A DNA stretch of 10,959 bases from NCBI GenBank assembly GCA_021443285.1, contig JABUUG010000024.1, positions 1-10,959 of the forward strand, written 5' to 3'. Positions 117 to 10,959 of the stretch are shown in pieces. The notes under the pieces were generated by a model. The model was not told the origin of the DNA and ran no database searches. It saw nothing but the letters and a program-made list of their open reading frames with translations. Position 1 is the stretch's first letter; the number at the start of each line of letters is the position of its first letter. A program made the position numbers and the translations under genes. Origin of the DNA: Bacteroidaceae bacterium. Lineage in GTDB: Bacteria; Bacteroidota; Bacteroidia; Bacteroidales; Bacteroidaceae.

Positions 117-1847
117 ATGAAAAATGATATGATGGAGAAAGGAATGATGAGTGGCGCAGAGATACTGATGGAATCGCTGAAGGCGGAGGGTGTCAGTACG
201 ATATTCGGGTACCCAGGTGGCTCGATTATGCCCGTTTATGATGCGCTTTATGACTATACACGTGGCGCGAGAAAGTGTTTTGAACACATATTGGTTAGGC
301 ATGAGCAAGGTGCAGTACATGCAGCGCAAGGATATGCTCGTGTGAGTGGTGGTGTGGGGACTGTGATTGTTACGAGCGGTCCTGGTGTGACGAACACCCT
401 GACGGGTATTGCTGACGCGATGATAGACTCAACTCCGATAGTGGTTATAGCTGGTCAGGTGGGTATTGGTGTTCTTGGGACTGATGCTTTTCAGGAGGTT
501 GACCTTATAACGGTCGCGCAGCCGATATGTAAATGGGTATGTCAGGTGCGTCGTGCTGTGGATATTCCTTCTTTGATAAGTAAGGCGTATTATCTTGCCC
601 GGGCTGGCAGACCTGGCCCTGTTGTAATAGATTTGCCGAAGAATGTTCAGACGGAGCATGCTGAGTATGTGCCGAAACCGGTGAATTTTGTGCGTAGTTA
701 CATTGCTTTTCCTCAGGCAAAGAGAGAGAACCTTTTGGCTGCTGCCGAGCTTATAAATAACGCAGAGAGACCGTTCGCACTTGTCGGGCAGGGCGTGGAA
801 TTGGGAAATGCCAATGCTGAGCTTTTGTGTTTTCTTGAGAAGGGAGATATACCTGCGGGCAGGACGATGCTGGGGCTGTCTGCTCTTTCAAGTGAGCATC
901 GACTGAACATGGGTATGCTTGGTATGCATGGGAATCTTGCTCCGAACCTGAAACAGCAGGAGGCGGATGTCGTAATAGCGATAGGAATGCGTTTTTCTGA
1001 CCGTGTAACGGGTAATCTGAAAACTTACCTGAAGCAAGCGAAGGTTATACATCTGGACATCGACAATGCGGAGATAGACAAGAATGTTAAGGCGGACATT
1101 GCGATTGTGGCGGACTGCAAGGAGTCTCTGCCTGCTCTGACGGAACTGATAAGGAAACGGGCTCACACGGAGTGGATAGAGAGCTTCAAGCCTTTGGCGG
1201 AGACGGAACGCAGTAGGGTTATAGAGAGGGCGATTCACCCTACGGATGGTCCGCTTCTTATGGGTGAGGTTGCACATGTGGTGTCAGAGGTGACAAACGG
1301 TATGGGGGTAACTGTGACGGATGTCGGTCAGAACCAGTTGTTTGCGACTCGCTATTCACGATACCTTACGAGGCGTTCTATAATTACCAGCGGGGGGCTT
1401 GGGACGATGGGGTACGGTCTGCCTGCTGCAATTGGGGCGACTTTTGCTGAGCATGGGCGTCCTGTATGTGTGTTTATGGGCGACGGTGGTTTGCAGATGG
1501 TGATACAGGAATTTGGGACGATCATGGAGCACAAATGTCCTGTAAAGATGATCCTGCTGAACAATAATTTTCTTGGTAATGTGCGTCAGTGGCAGAACAT
1601 GTTCTTTGAGAAGCGCTATGCGTTTACGCATATGCTAAATCCGAATTATGGTGATATATGTAAGGCATACGGGATACCTTATCGGCGTGTGTGGAAACGG
1701 GAGGAACTACGGTCGGCTGTGGAGGAGATGATAGGAACGGAGGGGCCGTTTATGCTTGAGGCTGTGATAAGGGAGGAGGACGATGTGATGCCGATGGTGG
1801 CGCCTGGTGCTTCTGTGAGCGAAATGATGCTGGAGAGTAAGGATTAA
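117..1847 (+). CDS. ilvB: Acetolactate synthase, large catalytic subunit
   Basis: This is the ThDP-dependent enzyme that condenses two pyruvates to acetolactate (valine/leucine branch) or pyruvate with 2-ketobutyrate (isoleucine branch); it is cytosolic. At 576 aa it has the usual family length. Visible motifs are GYPGG (31-35), the RHEQGAVHAAQGYAR block with catalytic Glu63, TSGPGVTN (87-93), GTDAFQE (121-127), the ThDP/Mg motif GDGG (455-458) leading to NNN (482-484), and LGNVRQWQ (486-493). The C-terminus MPMVAPGASVSEM is typical of Bacteroidetes homologues. The residue after GYPGG is Ser36 where most homologues have Ala. The start at 117 follows an AT-rich stretch. Met10/Met11 (144, 147) lie behind GAGAAAGGA and are a plausible alternative start. 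ilvN follows after 9 nt, so the two are cotranscribed. No ilvD lies in the visible upstream sequence. Confidence 0.97.
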   Translation: MKNDMMEKGMMSGAEILMESLKAEGVSTIFGYPGGSIMPVYDALYDYTRGARKCFEHILVRHEQGAVHAAQGYARVSGGVGTVIVTSGPGVTNTLTGIADAMIDSTPIVVIAGQVGIGVLGTDAFQEVDLITVAQPICKWVCQVRRAVDIPSLISKAYYLARAGRPGPVVIDLPKNVQTEHAEYVPKPVNFVRSYIAFPQAKRENLLAAAELINNAERPFALVGQGVELGNANAELLCFLEKGDIPAGRTMLGLSALSSEHRLNMGMLGMHGNLAPNLKQQEADVVIAIGMRFSDRVTGNLKTYLKQAKVIHLDIDNAEIDKNVKADIAIVADCKESLPALTELIRKRAHTEWIESFKPLAETERSRVIERAIHPTDGPLLMGEVAHVVSEVTNGMGVTVTDVGQNQLFATRYSRYLTRRSIITSGGLGTMGYGLPAAIGATFAEHGRPVCVFMGDGGLQMVIQEFGTIMEHKCPVKMILLNNNFLGNVRQWQNMFFEKRYAFTHMLNPNYGDICKAYGIPYRRVWKREELRSAVEEMIGTEGPFMLEAVIREEDDVMPMVAPGASVSEMMLESKD

Positions 1848-1856
1848 TAATAAAAG

Positions 1857-2432
1857 ATGGAGAAGAAATTATATACGATACTGATATACTCAGAGAATGT
1901 TGTTGGTATATTGAATCAGATAACTGCTGTGTTCACTCGTTTGCAGGTTAATATAGAGAGTCTGAACGTGTCGCCTTCAGGGATTCCGAATGTTCACAAA
2001 TACACGGTGACGATATTTAGTGATGCTGTGCAGGTAGATAAGATTGTGAAGCAGATAGAGAAGAAGGTAGATGTGATAAAGGCGGACTTTTATCTTGACG
2101 CTGAGATATTTACGAGTGAGGTTGCGTTGTTCAAACTTTCGGCTCCGAAGGTGATGAATGTGCCGGAAATCTCTCGATTGATAAGGCACTCCGCAGCTCG
2201 TATGCTTGAGGTTAACGAGACTTACATAACGGTTCATGTATGCACCTCGTCGAATGCAATAGTTGAGCTGTATAAGGGTCTTGCCAAGCACAAATGTGTT
2301 CTTCAATATACGAGGAGTGGTCGTGTCGCAATAACTCGTGACAAGGCGGAAAGGGTTTCTCTGTTTCTGAAGGAGCAGAAGAATGCCCAGCTGATGTTTA
2401 TGGAGGAGGGAATAAATAACAGTGAGGAATAA
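1857..2432 (+). CDS. ilvN: Acetolactate synthase, small regulatory subunit
   Basis: This is the regulatory partner of the preceding large subunit. It stimulates catalysis and usually confers valine feedback inhibition. The N-terminal ACT domain spans about residues 4-76, beginning LYTILIYSENVVGILNQI. Gly17 and Asn32 (in VNIESLNV) align with E. coli IlvH Gly14 and Asn29, which lie at the valine site; E. coli Ser17 is replaced here by Asn20. The C-terminal domain, about residues 88-170, matches the ALS small-subunit C-terminal fold. At 191 aa it is longer than E. coli IlvH, with a Glu/Asn-rich tail, as is common in Bacteroidetes. The gene starts 9 nt after ilvB. Its stop codon (2430-2432) overlaps an ATG at 2432, and the ACP gene begins within 20 nt, suggesting read-through into the lipid/polyketide cassette. 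Confidence 0.95.
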   Translation: MEKKLYTILIYSENVVGILNQITAVFTRLQVNIESLNVSPSGIPNVHKYTVTIFSDAVQVDKIVKQIEKKVDVIKADFYLDAEIFTSEVALFKLSAPKVMNVPEISRLIRHSAARMLEVNETYITVHVCTSSNAIVELYKGLAKHKCVLQYTRSGRVAITRDKAERVSLFLKEQKNAQLMFMEEGINNSEE

Positions 2433-2450
2433 TGATGAATGGTATTTGTT

Positions 2451-2717
2451 ATGGAAAAACTGATACAGGAATTGAAGGAGGGGATTATAAAGTGCCTTAA
2501 TCTTGAGGATATCTGTGCGGATGACATAAACGAGAAGATGCCGCTGTTCGGTGAAGGAGGTTTAGGCCTTGACTCGATAGATGCGCTTGAGATTATTGTG
2601 CTACTGGAGCGTAATTACGGTATAAGAATGTTGAATGCCGCAGAGGGTCGTAAAGTGTTTACGAGCATCGAGAATATAGCGAAGTATGTAAAGGAGAACG
2701 CCAAGAAGAATTCGTAG
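2451..2717 (+). CDS. Acyl carrier protein
   Basis: This is a small acidic acyl carrier protein of 88 aa. The phosphopantetheine site is the Ser of GLGLDSIDALE (Ser42 from the chosen start), followed by helix II, IIVLLERNYGI. It should carry the growing acyl chain as a thioester for the ketosynthase encoded immediately downstream. I chose ATG 2451 because MEKLIQELKEG begins as family members do. In-frame ATG 2439 would add only MVFV, and out-of-frame ATGs sit at 2432 and 2435. It lies 18 nt after ilvN and 21 nt before the ketosynthase gene. The sequence is not that of a housekeeping AcpP (it lacks the DSLDTVE signature), so it is probably dedicated to this cluster. A discrete ACP next to KS genes is typical of aryl-polyene/flexirubin-type loci. 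Confidence 0.93.
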   Translation: MEKLIQELKEGIIKCLNLEDICADDINEKMPLFGEGGLGLDSIDALEIIVLLERNYGIRMLNAAEGRKVFTSIENIAKYVKENAKKNS

Positions 2718-2738
2718 CTTTCCGCACGCAAGTTCCTT

Positions 2739-4673
2739 ATGACTAAAGGCATAGCAATCTCTGGATGTGGCATAATATGCGCCATTGGCAATGATGTGGA
2801 CAGTGTCGCTGACTCGCTGAAGAGGGTGAGAAGCGGTGTGGGGAGTGTCAGGCACCTAAACTCAGGCCTTGATATGCCTGTGGGTGAAATTAAACTTTCT
2901 GACGCAGAACTGAAGTGTCATTTGGAGCTTGGCGATGGTGAGGAATACAGCAGGACAGAGCTTGTTGCTGCTGTTGCTCTTCGCGAAGCGATGAAAGATG
3001 CTGGTGTTTCTCAGAGGATTTTGTCGGAAAAACGTATTGCCTTTGTATCGGCGACAACAGTTGGCGGCATGGATTTGACAGAACGTTATTTCCAGGACAT
3101 GTTTTTGGATGAGGACAAGGCACGGATGTTTGCCTGTCATGAAAATTCAAACAGCACCGGCTGGATAGCGTACTTGTGTGGTTTAAGTTGTGAGCAGACG
3201 ACTATCTCAACCGCCTGCTCTTCTGCGTTGAATGCTATAATTTTAGGTGCGAGAATGCTTCTTACTGGTGAAGCAGACATGGTGTTTGCCGGTGGAACGG
3301 AGGCATTGTCGCTATTTCATCTGAATGGTTTCAACAGCCTTCATATACTTGACAATGAGCATTGCCGTCCTTTTGATGTTAACAGGGGGGGGCTGAATCT
3401 TGGTGAAGGCGCTGCATACATTGTGATGGAGCGCAGTGATGATGCTGTGTGCCGCGGTGCGAGCATTTGGGGATATGTAGCTGGATGGGGGAACAGATGT
3501 GATGCTTTCCACCAGACTGCCTCTTCAGATAACGGGGAGGGGGCATATCTTGCCATGAAGGATGCCTTGGAAATGTCTGGTATAGAGGTAAATGCAATTG
3601 ACTATGTTAGCGCACATGGTACGGGAACTCCTGACAATGACAAAAGCGAATCGGCAGCAATGCGGAGATTATTTGGGGGGAACCTTCCGAAAGTGTCAAG
3701 CACGAAGGGCTTTACCGGGCATACCACATCAGCATCGGGCAGCATAGAGACTGTTATCTGTCTGATAGCAATGAGGGATGGCTTTATTCCCGCCAATCTC
3801 GGTTGGGAGATGATGGATGAAGCCTGCATTATCCCCTTTGTGCGGCAAGAAACCCTGTTTAGGGGGGAAGAAGACGTAAGAGAGAGTAAATCCTTCAATT
3901 CGTTTCATATCATGAAAGCTGCTAAAGCTGATTACGGAGATGACACTTTGAACACGGCAACTGGGGCAGTAAGAGAGGATGGAGAAGAGAACGAGGTTTG
4001 TAATGTGCTTTGCAATGCTTTTGGTTTTGGCGGGAATGATTCTTCTCTACTTCTGACGAAGGAAGAATGTCCACTTGATATACATTTTATAGAAGAGGGA
4101 AAAAGTGTTGGCGAACATACGATAATATGGAAGTCATCCGATAAAACAAATGCGACGGAATATGGCTGTGGCTATGATTTTTCTGAACTGAAGCAGTACA
4201 TTCCTGCCATACAACAGCGGAGGATGGACATAATGACAAAGGCTGCAATGCTGACATCATATAAGGCATTGGACTCAGCCGGCATTGACAAGCCAGATGC
4301 AATAGTAATTGCCACAAGATACGGAATGCTTGAAGCGGGCGAGAAGATACTCCGCCATCTGTGCGAAGAGGGTGAAGACGGAATAAGTCCTACTCTGTTT
4401 ATGCAGAGTACGCATAACACGATAGCAGGTATGCTTGCCATTAGACTTGGTTGCCATGGCTATAACATAACCTACTCGCATGGTGAAGATTCGCTGCAAT
4501 GGGCTATCAGGGATGCTAACCGTCTGATTTCAGAAGGCAAGGCGAAGACGGTGCTTGTTGGTGTTCATGACTATTTTCCTGAGGGTTTCAGAGAGATAAT
4601 GGGTATTGCGGGGATGAAGATTCCGTTTGATCTATACTCGAAAAGCATGGTTATAATGAAGAACGGAGATTAA
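2739..4673 (+). CDS. Ketosynthase fused to a chain-length-factor-like half domain
   Basis: The protein has 644 residues in one uninterrupted frame. Residues 4-440 form a complete beta-ketoacyl-ACP synthase of the FabF/KAS-II type: Cys160 in STACSSALNA, His293 in AHGTGTPDND, Lys323 and His328 in KGFTGHT, and FGFGG at 428-432. A roughly 43-residue charged insertion (about 376-418) separates PFVRQE from the terminal core strand. Residues 450-644 resemble the KS N-terminal half found as standalone proteins in dialkylresorcinol/aryl-polyene clusters (Ketoacyl-synt_2 type): KAAMLTSYKALDSAGI, IVIATRYGMLEAGEKI and QSTHNTIAGMLAIRLGCHG. Where the active Cys should be it reads YSHGEDSLQWAI, so this half is probably non-catalytic and acts as a chain-length factor or partner. 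The expected role is decarboxylative elongation of a polyketide or polyene chain on the upstream ACP. A G8 run at 3385-3392 lies in the KS core. Confidence 0.9.
   Translation: MTKGIAISGCGIICAIGNDVDSVADSLKRVRSGVGSVRHLNSGLDMPVGEIKLSDAELKCHLELGDGEEYSRTELVAAVALREAMKDAGVSQRILSEKRIAFVSATTVGGMDLTERYFQDMFLDEDKARMFACHENSNSTGWIAYLCGLSCEQTTISTACSSALNAIILGARMLLTGEADMVFAGGTEALSLFHLNGFNSLHILDNEHCRPFDVNRGGLNLGEGAAYIVMERSDDAVCRGASIWGYVAGWGNRCDAFHQTASSDNGEGAYLAMKDALEMSGIEVNAIDYVSAHGTGTPDNDKSESAAMRRLFGGNLPKVSSTKGFTGHTTSASGSIETVICLIAMRDGFIPANLGWEMMDEACIIPFVRQETLFRGEEDVRESKSFNSFHIMKAAKADYGDDTLNTATGAVREDGEENEVCNVLCNAFGFGGNDSSLLLTKEECPLDIHFIEEGKSVGEHTIIWKSSDKTNATEYGCGYDFSELKQYIPAIQQRRMDIMTKAAMLTSYKALDSAGIDKPDAIVIATRYGMLEAGEKILRHLCEEGEDGISPTLFMQSTHNTIAGMLAIRLGCHGYNITYSHGEDSLQWAIRDANRLISEGKAKTVLVGVHDYFPEGFREIMGIAGMKIPFDLYSKSMVIMKNGD
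3385..3392 (+). repeat. G8 homopolymer inside the ketosynthase gene
   Basis: Eight consecutive G encode part of Arg-Gly-Gly (residues 216-218) just before the conserved GEGAA strand. Codon synonyms could have broken the run. It is a potential slippage site. Shorter G6 runs occur at 3675-3680 and 3862-3867 in the same gene. Confidence 0.9.
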
Positions 4674-4688
4674 AGAACTGGCGGTTGC

Positions 4689-4709
4689 GGTTTTTGCAGA
4701 GCAAAAGCC
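4689..4709 (+). promoter_or_regulatory. Possible RNA hairpin between KS and the ArnE-like gene
   Basis: GGTTTTTGC (4689-4697), loop AGA and GCAAAAGCC (4701-4709) can form a 9-bp stem with one U-G pair. It sits in the 84-nt gap between the KS stop and ATG 4758, the largest gap inside the cassette. No T-run follows, so it is not a canonical intrinsic terminator. It could be an mRNA stability or processing element, or chance. Confidence 0.35.
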
Positions 4710-4757
4710 TCAAACAACAGTGGCATATTGATAATAGTATATAGCGGTGCCGGCGAT

Positions 4758-5123
4758 ATGACGAGTGTATCCTTATTTTCCTTAGCCTTACTGCAGAGCA
4801 TTGTCCTGACATCGGGGCAGGTATTCCTTAAGATTGCCCTGACAAGAATGTCGTCGTTCAGCTGGACATTTGAATTCTGGAAATCAGTGCTTCTGAACTG
4901 GCATTTTGCTTTGTCAGGAATAAGTTTTGGGGCAGCGAGTCTGCTGTGGATGTATATCATAAAGCATTATCCACTGAGTATGGCATACCCGCTGGTGAGC
5001 CTGAGCTACGTTTTCGGACTGGTGGCAGCTGCCTGGATATTCAATGAGGAGGTAAATGCCCTCAGATGGTTAGGCGCACTACTGATAGTTTTGGGATGTG
5101 TAATCGTATCAAAACCTCTATGA
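4758..5123 (+). CDS. ArnE/EmrE-like small four-helix membrane protein
   Basis: This hydrophobic protein of 121 aa has four predicted membrane helices: about 4-24 (FSLALLQSIVLTSGQVFLKI), 43-63 (FALSGISFGAASLLWMYII), 70-92 (LSMAYPLVSLSYVFGLVAAA) and 99-118 (LRWLGALLIVLGCVIVS). The motifs SGQVFLK, YPLSMAYPLVSLSYV and RWLGALLIVLG resemble ArnE/ArnF, the SMR/DMT-fold subunits that flip aminoarabinose-phosphoundecaprenol, more than drug-exporting EmrE. In this context it may flip a lipid-linked intermediate or act as an exporter accessory; this is inference. I chose ATG 4758 because helix 1 follows directly. A TTG at 4728 would add ten residues. Its TGA overlaps the ATG of the LolA-like gene (ATGA, 5120-5123), which suggests translational coupling. 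Confidence 0.8.
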   Translation: MTSVSLFSLALLQSIVLTSGQVFLKIALTRMSSFSWTFEFWKSVLLNWHFALSGISFGAASLLWMYIIKHYPLSMAYPLVSLSYVFGLVAAAWIFNEEVNALRWLGALLIVLGCVIVSKPL

Positions 5124-5707
5124 TTATGAAACGCATATTTATAACATTGACCATCTGCCTGTATGCAATGTTTATTTACGGCCAACAGATTAATCAGGAA
5201 AAAGCCATAAGCGAGATAAGCACAGCTGCTGCGACTATAAAAAGCATGAAGTGCGACTTTATACAGACGAAGTCGCTAAAGATTCTTGGCGACAAAATGG
5301 TGTCAAAGGGCAATATGCAGCTGAAGCAACCCGACTTGCTGAAGTGGCAATATACAACGCCATATTCTTACACATTCACTCTGGATGGCAATAAAGTGAG
5401 CATAGAGAAAGGTGGTCGTAAGGACGTTATAGATATAAACGAGAGCAGAATGTTCAAAGAGATAACCCGTATAATGATGAACACTCTACTGGGTAAATGC
5501 TTGACAGACAGAAAGTCGTTCAAGACAACAGTAATGCAAAAAGACCAGATGTATCTCGCCACTCTTGTTCCGCTGAAGAAAGACATAAAGCAGATGTTCA
5601 CAAAAATTGTACTGCACTACAACAGGCAGATTGCTAAGGTAACGAAAGTGGAGCTGCATGAAAAGAACGGAGATTCTACACTGATAGAGTTACTGATTAA
5701 GAATTAA
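5120..5707 (+). CDS. LolA-like periplasmic lipid/lipoprotein carrier
   Basis: This 195-aa protein begins with a signal peptide (MIMKRIFITLTICLYAMFIYG, cleavage likely before QQ; alternative start ATG 5126). The mature part follows the LolA fold pattern: an early helix with MKCDFIQTKSL, then KGNMQLKQPDLLKWQYTTPYS and YTFTLDGNKVSI strands, and a C-terminal MFTKIVLHYN strand pair. The KWQY/PY-Y block corresponds to the LRW-Y-P motif of LolA relatives. In aryl-polyene-type clusters a LolA-like protein is thought to carry the finished lipid-like product across the periplasm, whereas canonical LolA carries lipoproteins. Its clustering with an exporter and acyltransferase favours the former. It starts by ATGA overlap with the upstream gene and its TAA shares a base with the next ATG (TAATG at 5705-5709). 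Confidence 0.85.
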   Translation: MIMKRIFITLTICLYAMFIYGQQINQEKAISEISTAAATIKSMKCDFIQTKSLKILGDKMVSKGNMQLKQPDLLKWQYTTPYSYTFTLDGNKVSIEKGGRKDVIDINESRMFKEITRIMMNTLLGKCLTDRKSFKTTVMQKDQMYLATLVPLKKDIKQMFTKIVLHYNRQIAKVTKVELHEKNGDSTLIELLIKN

Positions 5708-6123
5708 TGCGACTCATAATTTCTTTTTTTTTCTCATTCATTATCGCTGCCAGTTCTAAGGCACAGGCGACATATCCTCAGAATAATGGCGAGAGCGTGA
5801 GGTATGATTTGATTATTGAGATGTCCAAAGCTTATCTCAGCGGAATACTTATAATGTTAAGAGACGGAGACAATACTGTCAATGCAAGCATCGTAAATGA
5901 GTTCGGACTGTCTCTTATGGATTTCACATATCATGAGGTTAAAGACAAAGTAACATTTCATACTCTTATGGGGAAATTGAACAAATGGTATATCAAGCGT
6001 ATATTGAAAAAAGACCTCCGAGCAATCTTGAAACTTATGCAAGAGGGGAAAGAAAAGACATACTTCGGTAGCCGCAATATAAAATATAGCTTTGAACTAC
6101 AGACAACAGCCAATCAGCCGTAG
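5707..6123 (+). CDS. Small exported protein of unknown function
   Basis: This 138-aa protein has a signal peptide (MRLIISFFFSFIIAASSKAQA, AxA-type cleavage near residue 21) and no lipobox cysteine, so it is probably soluble and periplasmic rather than a lipoprotein. The mature part has beta-rich stretches (VRYDLIIEM, AYLSGILIMLRDG, NASIVNEFGLSLMDFTYHE) and a basic helical part (LNKWYIKRILKKDLRAIL). I do not recognise the family securely. Its place right after the LolA-like gene, where polyene clusters often encode a small envelope protein (DUF3261-type), suggests a LolB-like accessory in delivering the product to the outer membrane; this is a guess from context. A T9 run (5724-5732) lies in the signal-peptide codons. 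The start shares one base with the upstream stop, and the next gene begins directly after the TAG. Confidence 0.7.
   Translation: MRLIISFFFSFIIAASSKAQATYPQNNGESVRYDLIIEMSKAYLSGILIMLRDGDNTVNASIVNEFGLSLMDFTYHEVKDKVTFHTLMGKLNKWYIKRILKKDLRAILKLMQEGKEKTYFGSRNIKYSFELQTTANQP
5724..5732 (+). repeat. T9 homopolymer in signal-peptide codons
   Basis: Nine T in a row encode the end of Ser7 and the Phe-Phe-Phe of the small exported protein, six codons after its ATG. One-base slippage would truncate it almost at once. It may equally just reflect hydrophobic Phe codons. Confidence 0.9.
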
Positions 6124-7605
6124 ATGATTAGTAGCCGACAAGTGATGCAACAGAGAGGCATTTGCGTGATTATACCAACGTATAACAACGGCAAGACCGT
6201 AGTAGATGTCATAGAGCGTACGCAGAAGCAGTGTGCTGACGTGATAGTTGTGAACGATGGCAGCACCGACAATACCCCTACCCTACTCCACCACACTGCA
6301 GGTATAACGATTATAGATAGAGAACGTAACGAAGGCAAAGGGGCTGCACTGAAACATGGTTTCAGAAAAGCTGTTGAGATGGGATTTGCTTACGCCATAA
6401 CACTTGACGCAGATGGGCAGCACTTCCCAGAAGACATTCCGCTGTTGATAGAGGCAAATGTAAAGCATCCACACAGCATCATCATGGGGCAAAGAATGCT
6501 TGAAGGTGCGGACAGATCGGGCGGTAGCAAGTTTGCCAACGCATTCAGCAACTTCTGGTTCTGTGTGCAGACATTTCACTATCTCGCTGATACACAGACG
6601 GGTTTCAGGCTTTATCCTCTCCACAGACTTAAGGGGCTGTCCTTGCTAACATCACGCTATGAGGCAGAACTTGAACTCCTCGTTTTCTCATCATGGCATG
6701 GCGTGGACATCATACCAGTTGATGTAAAAGTCTATTATCCCCCAAGAAATGAGCGGGTTTCGCATTTCAGGCCAATTCCTGACTTTACCCGTATCACCAT
6801 CCTCAATACATTCCTCTGTATGCTTGCAGTGGTGTATGGTCTGCCTTGCGCCATATATCGTGTTCTTTACATTGCGCTTTTCACAATAGTCTCGCTTATT
6901 GTTTATCTTGTCGGGGCATTGCTCGTTATCACGCCGTACACAGCAGCGGTGAAATGTTTAAAAAAAGGAACTCTGCCTGTCCACAAAATACTACACATTT
7001 CTGCAAGGTTTGCCACAGCTGTATTGCAGATATTCTGCAGCAAGGTTATTATTCGCAATAAGCATTGCGAGGATTTTACGAAGCCTGCCGTTATAATATG
7101 CAATCACCAGAGCCACCTCGATCTGATTCTGCAAATGGGTCTTACCAGTAAAATAGTGTTCCTTACCAACGACTGGGTATGGAAAAGCCCATTCTTCGGA
7201 TATGTTATCAGAAATGCAGAATACCTTCCTGCATCAGAAGGAATAGACCAACTCCTGCCCAAAATAAAGTCGCTTGTAGAGCGAGGATACTGTATTTCTA
7301 TCTTCCCAGAAGGCACGCGCTCTACAGACTGTTCAATAGGGCGTTTTCACAAAGGCGCGTTCCATATCGCCAAAGAACTGGGTATAGATGTACTCCCTCT
7401 TGTACTATATGGCGCAGGGAAGGTACTTCCCAAGAACGGTGTGTATATGAGGCGACAAACCATCTGTCTTGACATAGACCGCAGAATCCCATATATACAT
7501 AGGGAAGAGGCAGGCATGTTGACCATACGGGAGGAAAGCAATCGTTTCCGCAAATATTACAGACAACGCTATGCCGAACTATGCAACGAAATGGAAAAAA
7601 TATAA
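6124..7605 (+). CDS. Glycosyltransferase family 2 - acyltransferase fusion
   Basis: This 493-aa bifunctional membrane protein has an N-terminal GT-A glycosyltransferase of the dolichyl-phosphate-mannose-synthase type. It shows IIPTYN (16-21), VVNDGSTDNT (42-51), NEGKGAALKHGF (69-80) and the metal-binding DADGQH (95-100); residues 158-162 read TQTGF. A hydrophobic segment at about 228-270 holds one or two helices. The C-terminal half (about 300-475) is a PlsC-type lysophospholipid acyltransferase with NHQSHLD (327-333, catalytic His328 and Asp333), FPEGTRS (394-400) and VLPLVLYGAG (423-432). The same domain pair occurs in aryl-polyene and flexirubin clusters. It is inferred there to join the acyl chain to a glycerol- or sugar-containing lipid anchor at the inner membrane. 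The donor sugar and acceptor cannot be read from sequence. ATG 6124 abuts the upstream TAG, and the TAA shares a base with the next ATG. Confidence 0.93.
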   Translation: MISSRQVMQQRGICVIIPTYNNGKTVVDVIERTQKQCADVIVVNDGSTDNTPTLLHHTAGITIIDRERNEGKGAALKHGFRKAVEMGFAYAITLDADGQHFPEDIPLLIEANVKHPHSIIMGQRMLEGADRSGGSKFANAFSNFWFCVQTFHYLADTQTGFRLYPLHRLKGLSLLTSRYEAELELLVFSSWHGVDIIPVDVKVYYPPRNERVSHFRPIPDFTRITILNTFLCMLAVVYGLPCAIYRVLYIALFTIVSLIVYLVGALLVITPYTAAVKCLKKGTLPVHKILHISARFATAVLQIFCSKVIIRNKHCEDFTKPAVIICNHQSHLDLILQMGLTSKIVFLTNDWVWKSPFFGYVIRNAEYLPASEGIDQLLPKIKSLVERGYCISIFPEGTRSTDCSIGRFHKGAFHIAKELGIDVLPLVLYGAGKVLPKNGVYMRRQTICLDIDRRIPYIHREEAGMLTIREESNRFRKYYRQRYAELCNEMEKI

Positions 7606-8510
7606 TGCAGTATATACTCATAACCATACTCTATTTCATCCCCGTCTGCGTCTCTTCGCAGATAAATATCTGGGACTATCCCTCAAACGACAGAGCCACC
7701 ATACCTAAATTATCACTCCCCTACAAAGGAGAAAGTCAGAAGAGGAACTGCGTAGAACTATATCCATACATCATATCAGGCACCAACAACACAGCTGTAA
7801 TTGTTTGTCCAGGAGGCAGTTATTTCTGGCATGACATGGAAACAGAAGGCCATCTTGTCGCAAAATGGCTCAACTCACAGGGAATATCGGCGTTTGTGCT
7901 CAACTATCGTACAGCCACCGTTCCTGCGTTCATTTTCCACTACAGAATATTTTTTCGAGGCAATAGGTATCCAGATGCACAGGACGATTTGAGACAGGCG
8001 CTGAAAGTCGTTCGAGATAAGTCAAAAGAGTTTGGTATAAACCCCAATGCCATAGGAGCAATGGGGTTCTCCGCAGGAGGACATCTCGCCATGTCCTCCG
8101 CAGAACTGTTCCCCTTTCAGGAACGCCCGGATTTCCTCGCAATAATATACCCTGTCGTCTCATTCACAGACGACTGTACACACAAACGATCACGTCGAGG
8201 ACTACTGGGAGAAAACAAAAAAAACAACGAATATCTTACCAATCTCCTCTCACTTGAGAAGCATGTGCCCAACAATTGTCCACCAGTTTTCCTCGTTAAC
8301 TGCAAGGATGACCCCATAGTCCACTGCCACAACTCCGAACTTCTCGATTCCGCGCTCTCCGCAAAAAAACAGCCGCACCTCTATATACAATACCAAACTG
8401 GAGGCCATGGCTTTGGGGCATCAGAAACTAAAGGTACAGAAGAATGCAGGCAATGGAAACCAGCATTTATTCAATGGTTGAAGAATAACAACCTCCTAAA
8501 GAAACATTAA
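7605..8510 (+). CDS. Exported alpha/beta hydrolase (esterase-like)
   Basis: This 301-aa protein starts at ATG 7605, which overlaps the preceding TAA by one base and gives a clean signal peptide (MQYILITILYFIPVCVSSQ). In-frame ATG 7581 would add eight polar residues and spoil it. The fold signature is clear: oxyanion-hole loop VIVCPGGSYF (Gly70-Gly71), nucleophile elbow GFSAGG (Ser156), acid Asp235/236 in NCKDDPIV and catalytic His268 in TGGHGFG. Closest in feel are Bacteroidetes acetyl-xylan-esterase/BD-FAE-like carboxylesterases. An unusual aromatic/basic stretch, PAFIFHYRIFFRGNRYPD, stands between the YR strand and the DAQDD helix. In this operon it may trim or transfer an ester-linked acyl product in the periplasm, but an unrelated carbohydrate-esterase role cannot be excluded. 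An A8 run lies at 8217-8224. Confidence 0.88.
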   Translation: MQYILITILYFIPVCVSSQINIWDYPSNDRATIPKLSLPYKGESQKRNCVELYPYIISGTNNTAVIVCPGGSYFWHDMETEGHLVAKWLNSQGISAFVLNYRTATVPAFIFHYRIFFRGNRYPDAQDDLRQALKVVRDKSKEFGINPNAIGAMGFSAGGHLAMSSAELFPFQERPDFLAIIYPVVSFTDDCTHKRSRRGLLGENKKNNEYLTNLLSLEKHVPNNCPPVFLVNCKDDPIVHCHNSELLDSALSAKKQPHLYIQYQTGGHGFGASETKGTEECRQWKPAFIQWLKNNNLLKKH

Positions 8511-10959
8511 GTGCATTACATACTAAAAATATTCGATTTAATTTCAAGGAACAAATATGCCGGAGGATTATCGCTCATTGCAATAACCCTGCTCCTTTTA
8601 TGTCTTGCACTCAGGATAAATCTTAACGAAGATATCACCGCATTCCTGCCACTAAATGAACAGCAGCAAAAAGCACTCGCTGTATATCAAGACACCTCTG
8701 GCGCAAACAAGATACTCGCTATTTTTCAAAACAACGCCCCTGCATGTAAAGACTACGATGCCATACTCCTCGCTATCGAAAAATTCAAGGACACCCTTCA
8801 GCAGAAAGACACTGCACACATAGTGCACAACCTCGTAACAGAGTTCAACACAGAGGAAATCACCCAAATGACAGAATTTGTCTATGCCAACATACCCTAT
8901 TTCCTCACATCATCCGATTACCAGAGAATAGACAGTCTGCTCAGCAATAAAGACTTCATCAGCAGGCAGATACAAGAAGACAAAGCCATGCTACAAATGA
9001 CAATGTCTGGACCAGTCGCTGACCATCTCGCAATAGACCCCCTCAACCTCTTCCAGCCAGTCCTCGCAAGACTAAAACAGCACACACACAGCAAAGTCGA
9101 GATATACCAAGGAGCAATCTTTACACCAGATATGTCAAGAGCCATCGTCATGATGGACTCCCCTTTCGGAAACAACGAGACGAAAAACAACACCCGTCTC
9201 ATGAACCTGTTGCAAAGCGTTGCAGACACCGTCCAACTCAGTACTACCAATGTCAATATACATTTCATCGGAGGCCCCTCAATAGCTGTTGAAAACGCAA
9301 AGCAAATAAAAGCCGACAGCACACTCGCTGCCGTCATTGCAATAGCACTCATAGTCCTACTGCTATACATCCACCTTCGTAGTACAAGAAATATACTACT
9401 TATACTCCTGTCAGTAGCATGGGGTAGCCTCTTCGCCATAGCAGCACTTGCAGTCCTCAGCCAAAGACCCTCACTAATCGTCATCGGCATATCAAGCATT
9501 ATCATCGGACTTGCCGTCAATTATCCACTCCACCTCATTGCACACACAGCACACACACACACACAACGACAGGCACTGCGGGAAGTTATCACACCGCTCG
9601 TAATAGGAAACATCACAACCGTAGGAGCCTTTATCGCACTCCTCCCACTACAAGCCACAGCCCTACGCGACCTAGGTATCTTCAGCGCATTCCTACTCGT
9701 TGGCACACTCATCTTCACCATCATTTTCCTCCCGCATCTTATAAAAAAACACGCACCCTCAATTCCTCCCCCCGCGTCTGAAGACTCTGCTTCGGATAAA
9801 ATAACCCTCCCCTCCCCCGGAACCTCCGCCCTTCCCACTACCGTGTCCAATAACAAGAAAATCATAGCACTATTGCTCATCCTCACACCCATCTTTGCAT
9901 ATTACAGCACACTCACAGGTTTCGATGCAGACATCAGCCATATCAACTACATGACCGACCAGCAAAAAGCCGATATACAAGCCTTCCAAAACATCACATC
10001 CAACAATCCCACCAACAACAATGCCATCTATATCGTAGCAGAAGGAAAAACAATCCAACAAGCACTTAATCTAAATCAGAAAAATATCAACAATCTCACC
10101 ACAAGCGCGGTCACATCACAATGCGCCCTCACCACACTACAGTTCCTCCCCTCCAAGCGTCAACAGCAGCAGCGCATACAAAAATGGCAGGCATTCATTA
10201 AAAAAAACTCCCATAAACTCATACATCAACTAAATACCATATCCACACAAAACGGATTCTCACCCGATGCATTCAACCAATTCCATAACATACTTACGTC
10301 CACCTATCCCATAAAAGAATACACATATTTCTCACCCCTCACCCTCATAAACAACCCATTCCTCAGCATTGACACCATCAACAAATCTTATCGCGTCATA
10401 ACATACCTCCATACCACTGCCACCGTGTCTGAAGCGTCGGCTTCCAATAAAACAATTTCCCGCAGCTGTGACTGCCCCCCCCCCTATCTCGACACCCCGG
10501 CAGCCTGGAATATAGCTCAAACCATAAACTCCACCCCAACCAAGCCCAAAGACAACACATTCGCCTTCCATGTCAAAAGTCTCAGCAGCGCAGCAACAAG
10601 AGCACTCTCCGACAACTTCAACTACATCGGATACGCCTGCGCACTCATAGTTTTTCTCTTCCTCACCTTATCATTCCAGTCCATAGAACTCGCACTCATC
10701 TCATTCCTCCCCATGGCAATAAGCTGGATATGGATACTCGGAATAATGGGAATAGCAAACATACAGTTCAATATTGTCAACATCATACTCGCAACATTCA
10801 TCTTCGGACAAGGAGATGACTACACAATATTCATCACCGAAGGATGCACCTATGAATACGCCTATCACAAAAAAATGATTGACTCATACAAGAAGTCAAT
10901 CATCATCTCCGCCACAATAATGTTCATAGGTATCGGAACACTCATCATCGCAAAGCATC
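8511..10959 (+). CDS. MMPL/RND-family exporter, truncated by window end
   Basis: I translated one open frame of 816 codons from GTG 8511 to the edge with no stop. The layout is that of two-repeat MMPL/RND exporters: TM1 about 17-36, a large periplasmic domain about 37-268, TM2-6 about 272-413, a Pro/Ser-rich loop about 418-448, TM7 449-468, a second periplasmic domain about 470-700, then TM8-11 to about 816. Only TM12 and the tail are missing. The proton-relay position is Asp770 in repeat two (FGQGDDYTIF), but Asn337 in repeat one (GLAVNYPLHL). It should pump the lipid-like product out of the inner membrane. The gene starts directly after the hydrolase TAA, in the same frame, with GTG and no nearby ATG; the first in-frame Met lies about 120 codons in. 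Codons are strongly C/A-rich. C10 and (CA)8 tracts occur inside it. Confidence 0.9.
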   Translation, partial: MHYILKIFDLISRNKYAGGLSLIAITLLLLCLALRINLNEDITAFLPLNEQQQKALAVYQDTSGANKILAIFQNNAPACKDYDAILLAIEKFKDTLQQKDTAHIVHNLVTEFNTEEITQMTEFVYANIPYFLTSSDYQRIDSLLSNKDFISRQIQEDKAMLQMTMSGPVADHLAIDPLNLFQPVLARLKQHTHSKVEIYQGAIFTPDMSRAIVMMDSPFGNNETKNNTRLMNLLQSVADTVQLSTTNVNIHFIGGPSIAVENAKQIKADSTLAAVIAIALIVLLLYIHLRSTRNILLILLSVAWGSLFAIAALAVLSQRPSLIVIGISSIIIGLAVNYPLHLIAHTAHTHTQRQALREVITPLVIGNITTVGAFIALLPLQATALRDLGIFSAFLLVGTLIFTIIFLPHLIKKHAPSIPPPASEDSASDKITLPSPGTSALPTTVSNNKKIIALLLILTPIFAYYSTLTGFDADISHINYMTDQQKADIQAFQNITSNNPTNNNAIYIVAEGKTIQQALNLNQKNINNLTTSAVTSQCALTTLQFLPSKRQQQQRIQKWQAFIKKNSHKLIHQLNTISTQNGFSPDAFNQFHNILTSTYPIKEYTYFSPLTLINNPFLSIDTINKSYRVITYLHTTATVSEASASNKTISRSCDCPPPYLDTPAAWNIAQTINSTPTKPKDNTFAFHVKSLSSAATRALSDNFNYIGYACALIVFLFLTLSFQSIELALISFLPMAISWIWILGIMGIANIQFNIVNIILATFIFGQGDDYTIFITEGCTYEYAYHKKMIDSYKKSIIISATIMFIGIGTLIIAKH
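9541..9565 (+). repeat. CA dinucleotide tract in exporter gene
   Basis: (CA)4, one G, then (CA)8 at 9550-9565 encode His-Thr repeats (AHTAHTHTQ) in the loop after TM4. The length is not a multiple-of-three unit, so gain or loss of one CA would shift the frame. Confidence 0.9.
9774..9804 (+). repeat. Intragenic hairpin repeat, copy A
   Basis: This sequence begins GCGTCTGAAG and contains TCTGAAG...CTTCGGA, which could form a 7-bp stem (one U-G pair) with a 6-nt loop. It encodes ASEDSASDKI in the TM6-TM7 loop of the exporter. It matches copy B at 10425 at about 23 of 31 positions in the same reading frame. Confidence 0.55.
10425..10455 (+). repeat. Intragenic hairpin repeat, copy B
   Basis: This sequence begins GTGTCTGAAG and contains a perfect GAAGC-GTCG-GCTTC hairpin (10431-10444). 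It encodes VSEASASNKT in the second periplasmic loop of the exporter and is followed closely by the C10 tract. It lies 651 bp from copy A, a multiple of three. Confidence 0.55.
10475..10484 (+). repeat. C10 homopolymer inside exporter gene
   Basis: Ten consecutive C encode the end of Cys and Pro-Pro-Pro in the segment SCDCPPPY of the second periplasmic domain. In the sequence as given the frame is open on both sides. This is the longest homopolymer in the window and a classic length for slipped-strand phase variation, or for sequencing error. Confidence 0.95.

Follow-up and report, generated by a model that had tools for sequence, protein, structure and literature searches.

Judged from its sequence, the stretch of DNA analysed here (10,959 nucleotides, referred to as the window) very probably forms the latter half of a lipid cluster of the aryl-polyene type, carried by a Prevotella-like bacterium. 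The window makes up the whole of contig C166 in a MAG of 2.56 Mb in 309 contigs, estimated to be 76.8% complete, and would hold about half of the gene set for a predicted aryl polyene lipid and its delivery to the outer membrane. Clusters of this type are already known and widespread. The form found here is specific to its clade, and its arrangement, behind two amino-acid synthesis genes, is unusual. We know of no product for any of the clusters compared in this study. All genes of the window lie on the + strand, all frames are open, and neighbouring genes overlap slightly or lie at most 54 bp apart. The genes are as follows:

117..1847, + strand: IlvB, large subunit of acetolactate synthase, opening the run; shares 64-72% identity with its counterparts in five relatives.
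1857..2432, + strand: IlvN, small subunit of acetolactate synthase; shares 56-62% identity with the IlvN of 29 relative loci.
2451..2717, + strand: ACP2, acyl carrier protein (ACP); PP-binding domain PF00550, PRK09184 at 73.7 bits (cut-off 70).
2739..4673, + strand: ketosynthase (KS) fused to an ApeC-like half-size chain-length factor (CLF); PF00109/PF02801 at 4-355, PF13723 at 486-620.
4728..5123, + strand: ArnE-like small membrane protein, EamA/SMR type; EamA above cut-off, best NCBIfam matches ArnE and ArnF, both below cut-off.
5120..5707, + strand: LolA2-type periplasmic carrier; NF053544 LolA2_flexi at 181 bits (cut-off 125), signal peptide by eye.
5707..6123, + strand: LolB-like protein; LolB2_flexi-like below the curated cut-off, plus fold, signal peptide by eye.
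6124..7605, + strand: GT2 glycosyltransferase fused to a PlsC-type acyltransferase (GT2-AT), ApeJ-like; PF00535 and PF01553, HQSHLD and EGTR motifs.
7605..8510, + strand: alpha/beta hydrolase, BD-FAE esterase family; PF20434, signal peptide by eye.
8511..10959, + strand: MMPL/RND transporter, cut by the contig end; PF03176, HpnN-like below cut-off.

The initial annotation described ACP, KS-CLF, LolA, GT2-acyltransferase and MMPL genes on one strand with almost no gaps. Pfam, curated models and the reading frames confirmed this set, to which we add the LolB-like gene and the neighbouring ilvB and ilvN genes. The annotation went on to read the set as an aryl-polyene- or flexirubin-like lipid cassette. 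The aryl polyene part of that reading is upheld by the ApeC-like CLF, the LolA2_flexi match above cut-off, the combination of GT/AT, RND, LolA and LolB genes found also in E. coli ape, and fuller clusters in relatives. The flexirubin and dialkylresorcinol part is not supported, as described below.

ACP2 has a second in-frame ATG at 2439, and its phosphopantetheine site is DSI, a motif kept in 67/67. The active site of the KS (Cys-His-His) is intact, with residues C160, H293, K323 and H328 kept in all 61 aligned sequences, that of the window among them. For the CLF half the best PDB match was 6qsp_B, the ApeC of a solved aryl-polyene synthase (E 5.9e-9). The KS-CLF model aligned with the single-chain KS-CLF of PfaC (6riw) at a Foldseek TM of 0.69 by query length, but with an rmsd of 10.2. 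Of the 398 genomes of this genus, 75 had a KS-CLF match at E<=1e-110, the window's own being one of them; for the more complete genomes the count was 26 of 175. Among the 76 matches listed, 62 had open frames of at least 562 residues, as expected of a KS-CLF fusion, and 14 had frames of at most 472. The relatives compared below were picked by KS-CLF protein similarity, a choice that favours fused forms.

The genes for anchoring and transport are likewise present: GT/acyltransferase, RND, LolA-like and LolB-like, the last below cut-off, plus fold. The GT2-AT matched dolichol-P-mannose synthase/ArnC and 1-acylglycerol-3-phosphate acyltransferase in the PDB. The esterase motifs GFSAG, DDPI and GGHG are kept in 53, 52 and 52 of 53 sequences, respectively, and the window MMPL matches those of the two nearest clusters at 48-49%. 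In several relatives (L087:8610-12164 and L036:11979-15551 among them) the C-terminus of MMPL is fused to a stretch resembling the acyltransferase half of GT2-AT; the window MMPL is cut too early to show or exclude such a fusion.

Gene order was scored in 67 relative loci by profiles built from those loci. LpxL plus MMPL or AMPL occur on the same strand in 47 of them, termed spanning loci, and the other 20 are outside the counts given per 47. One genome (G411) is represented twice among the 67 (L091, L183) and is not in the 47; three further loci (L035, L049, L086) were annotated but lie outside the 67. A KS of a second type, KS567, was found in all 47 spanning loci, ACP2 in 46, the ArnE-like gene and MMPL in 45 each, GT2-AT in 44, LolA in 41, the methyltransferase (MT) and the esterase in 39 each, ACP1 in 38, LolB in 37, the acyltransferase AT375 in 36, a thioesterase in 34, CrtD-like genes in 31-32 and an AMP-ligase in 31. 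The ArnE-like gene directly followed KS-CLF in 63 of 65 cases. The order ACP2-KSCLF-ArnE-LolA-LolB-GTAT-Est-MMPL was matched exactly in L098 (G260) and L171 (G258); these two genomes thus have the downstream order of the window, without an ApeI-like dehydratase. The ArnE-like protein and the esterase had been considered less usual members, pointing to a possible variant lipid. Both are regular in the clade (45 and 39 of 47), and so neither marks the locus as a variant. The CrtD/CrtI-like oxidoreductases occur as two genes, mostly right after GT2-AT (L034, L097, L101 and others), and do not appear in the E. coli ape list in the available portion of PMC8253772; the window has no such pair between GT2-AT and the esterase.

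The genes that precede ACP2 in relatives appear to lie on a second contig of the same MAG. Contig C110 carries a KS, an O-methyltransferase, an ACP (ACP1), an LpxL-like acyltransferase, a thioesterase and a third of another KS, so that each contig contributes one dedicated ACP. For each of the 8 window genes and 6 C110 genes compared, the two nearest relatives included G120 or G096, which fits a single cluster, and the two contigs fall in the same compositional class. The two halves, together in 47 relative loci, are on separate contigs here. C110 ends within its last KS gene after 193 residues, and the remainder was not found in a search of the 76.8% complete MAG. By BLAST, the resemblance of KS567 to the window KS-CLF extends into the C-terminal CLF half (L042:3183-4976, L047:2331-4118, L048:16692-18392); in the L046 copy PF13723 did not reach 0.001. 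KS567 keeps Cys, His, Lys and His in 59/59, and the Cys is also present on C110. Perhaps, then, one cluster contains two KS-CLF fusions.

IlvN ends 18 bp upstream of the ACP, and ilvB is not an aryl-polyene gene. The two ilv genes occupy the slot before the ACP that relatives usually fill with a KS gene: KS567-type KS was found there in 58 of 65 scored cases and a thioesterase in 5. None of the 67 relative loci matched IlvB or IlvN profiles, nor did 54 short loci (many of them overlapping the 67) on the KS strand, the only strand reported for these. It is possible, if somewhat unlikely, that the contig is an assembly chimera that fuses ilvBN from elsewhere with the latter half of an ordinary cluster. 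The expected KS gene is the one inside which C110 breaks off, and the last 23 bases of C110 have no other occurrence in the MAG, which is itself uneven in composition. Against a chimera, the skew at synonymous sites runs on across the ilvN-ACP border, with keto shares of 0.80, 0.77, 0.67 and 0.65 in half-overlapping windows of 60 sites each, an overlap that would blur a small compositional step, and the window and C110 have no identical stretch of at least 15 bases in common. Among 14 relatives whose ilvN surroundings were read, ilvN is followed in 10 by one gene type, presumably an acyl-ACP thioesterase, with ilvC next in the four that were followed furthest; in the other four (G006, G018, G025, G037) a different gene follows, frames being judged by eye throughout. 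Since ilvBN is apart from the ilvC pair in those four, it can move and is not always tied to ilvC in the genus. On contig C1 of the MAG a thioesterase-like gene and ilvC stand behind a divergent methylmalonyl-CoA mutase gene (PF01642) without ilvBN, as would be expected had ilvBN been displaced; the composition of C1, however, puts it in another class, and it may therefore come from a different organism. The ilvBN neighbours of the cluster are thus unusual, and the uneven composition of the MAG leaves their junction with the ACP gene unconfirmed. Before ilvB, positions 1-100 of the window hold repeated ACTCCTTTA-like units, with 18-base matches to them on contig C247.

Composition was compared over the 30 MAG contigs with at least 4 scored genes. 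At fourfold-degenerate sites of the window (117-10959) the share of G/T falls from about 0.9 near 1.7-2.2 kb to about 0.5 at 4-7 kb and 0.05 at the right end. The GC-skew difference from KS-CLF to MMPL is 0.61, the next highest among the other 53 loci being 0.27. A change in this sense, from + to -, is what a replication terminus would show, but C309 switches likewise and C210 switches back. In six contigs, C166, C110, C210, C295, C300 and C309 (L082, L083, L223-L225), fourfold GC lies at 0.38-0.47 and the lowest gene skew between -0.57 and -0.87; fourfold GC is at least 0.52 in the other 24, a few of them also being strongly skewed. Either the bin is mixed, or the six contigs belong to a chromosomal region with a composition of its own.

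The genes expected to form the double bonds of a polyene are a second point of departure. In relatives, an ApeI-like gene sits between LolB and GT2-AT. It scored 21.7 bits against the Pfam ApeI-like model, below the cut-off of 28.5, and gave a profile match to 6qsr, which we take to be the ApeI of X. doucetiae, at E 4.8e-6, tied with 3esi. A small partner gene gave a weak FabZ match (E 8.8e-4) and no Pfam match, its likeness to FabZ/ApeP otherwise being in motifs seen by eye. Of the 47 loci, 34 have the two genes and 13 have neither, counted as raw loci with kinship ignored. There is no room for the former between LolB and GT2-AT in the window, nor for the latter between LpxL and the thioesterase on C110, and a scan of 45 of the 309 contigs, some in part, the window and C110 included, found neither. 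An AMP-ligase lies within the stretch covered in 31 of 47 spanning relatives, some loci ending before its position. A cluster-type AMP-ligase was not found in this MAG at 76.8% completeness; C268 gave one 28% partial match and also one at 4.6e-25. A stripped cluster that makes a non-polyene aryl lipid, or one that is decaying, would account for the missing dehydratase pair, itself absent from 13 relatives, and for the lack of the CrtD pair. We consider this unlikely, as all frames of the window are open and catalytic motifs are kept; moreover, the ordinary FabZ of fatty acid synthesis may serve in place of dedicated enzymes. A more elaborate scheme, which we hold to be distinctly improbable, is a two-locus system whose half for carrier, elongation and export functions was captured by the ilvBN operon and whose dehydratase pair was dropped, FabZ supplying the double bonds, with the ArnC/DPM-like GT2 and an ArnE-like flippase hanging the chain on a polyprenyl-linked sugar. 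If such a capture had occurred, lipid production would follow the demand for branched-chain amino acids.

Flexirubins are aryl polyenes that form an ester with a dialkylresorcinol and whose synthesis begins with a tyrosine ammonia lyase, according to the accessible part of PMC3992019, and LolA2 and LolB2 are tied to flexirubin-type loci in the corresponding part of PMC11885536. The LolA2_flexi and LolB2_flexi-like proteins of the window could thus suggest a flexirubin cluster proper, as could a FlxB-family reductase elsewhere in the MAG (400 bits, cut-off 340). The reductase, which is also the candidate noted for the ketoreductase, is on C242, a contig that, like C1, is in a different compositional class from the window, and has no link to this cluster. 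An ammonia lyase, which the initial annotation had named among the genes to be sought beyond the window, was not found: PF00221 had no match in the incomplete MAG. Among 25 relatives, 19 have no PF00221 match, including the single-contig genomes G016, G024 and G297, and the other six have it on a contig other than that of the cluster (0 of 25 on the cluster contig). No DarA or DarB was recognised among the frames of L034, which were assigned mostly through L040/L046 homologues rather than by DarA/DarB models. A flexirubin cluster proper is accordingly very improbable; the cluster is of the aryl-polyene type of known kind. On C242, positions 3-2924 (L213 of G000:C242) contain the C-terminal part of a second MMPL protein, a protein of 186 residues that matched neither Pfam nor NCBIfam, and the FlxB-family reductase. 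These may be the terminal portion of a further polyene-type cluster of the MAG. Finally, a housekeeping role in ordinary phospholipid, lipoprotein or hopanoid-type transport, which the PlsC-type acyltransferase and the HpnN-like MMPL might suggest, is hardly credible, given the separate FabF-like KS of the MAG on C247, the ApeC-like CLF of the window KS and the presence of KS-CLF at E<=1e-110 in 75 of 398 genus genomes (26 of the 175 more complete).

For the preferred aryl polyene cluster, we infer the following pathway from the gene identities. An aromatic acid, activated by the AMP-ligase that is present in relatives and was not found in this MAG, would prime the ACP, and the KS-CLF fusion would add malonyl units. 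A ketoreductase and a dehydratase, the latter possibly FabZ, would create the double bonds, and the O-methyltransferase and thioesterase of C110 would tailor the chain and set it free. Two acyltransferases, one LpxL-like and one linked to GT2, would then fix the chain to an anchor, a lipid or glycolipid, which the ArnE-like protein may help to flip. Export of the product from the inner membrane would fall to MMPL and its transfer to the outer membrane to LolA and LolB, and the esterase may trim or remodel it in the periplasm. No product was named for a Prevotella aryl polyene cluster in the titles and abstract openings covered. The comparison provides a testable parts list for the clade, with the fused KS-CLF, the ArnE-like protein and the secreted esterase as regular members and the dehydratase pair kept or lost as a unit in 47 loci. 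A cultured member of the G258/G260 type, without the ApeI-like dehydratase, would show whether polyene synthesis requires the ApeI-like gene.

Several known systems share parts of this architecture. The KS-CLF didomain of PfaC (6riw) likewise has KS and CLF on a single chain. The CLF of PfaC is full size, whereas that of the window is half size, as in ApeC. The Flx clusters of Chitinophaga pinensis and Flavobacterium johnsoniae share LolA, acyltransferase, glycosyltransferase and exporter genes with the window (in the portions of PMC3992019 and PMC11885536 at hand), and LolB2 of the F. johnsoniae cluster (PMC11885536, same portion) is the counterpart of the LolB-like protein; in contrast to them, none of the 25 relatives carries an ammonia lyase on the contig that holds its cluster. 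The list of E. coli ape genes, as far as the text of PMC8253772 at hand extends, includes the GT/AT ApeJ, the LolA-like ApeL, the RND ApeM, the LolB-like ApeN, ACPs, KS and CLF, and does not include an ArnE-like gene or the esterase. The aryl polyene (APE) systems of E. coli CFT073 and Xenorhabdus doucetiae (ApeA-R), judged from partial texts, share with ours the ACPs, KS with half-size CLF, the ApeJ, ApeL, ApeM and ApeN types, the thioesterase and the methyltransferase. They differ in that KS and CLF are separate chains, ApeO and ApeC (PMC8358021, in part), rather than fused, while ilvBN stands upstream and dehydratases were not found in the present case. In rumen genomes, aryl polyene clusters made up 2,800 of 14,814 clusters identified by antiSMASH in 8,160 genomes, and some of those from Prevotella were differentially expressed (PMC8241843, in the excerpt available). 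The cluster described here is of the same kind as these rumen Prevotella clusters, the comparison being at the level of cluster class.
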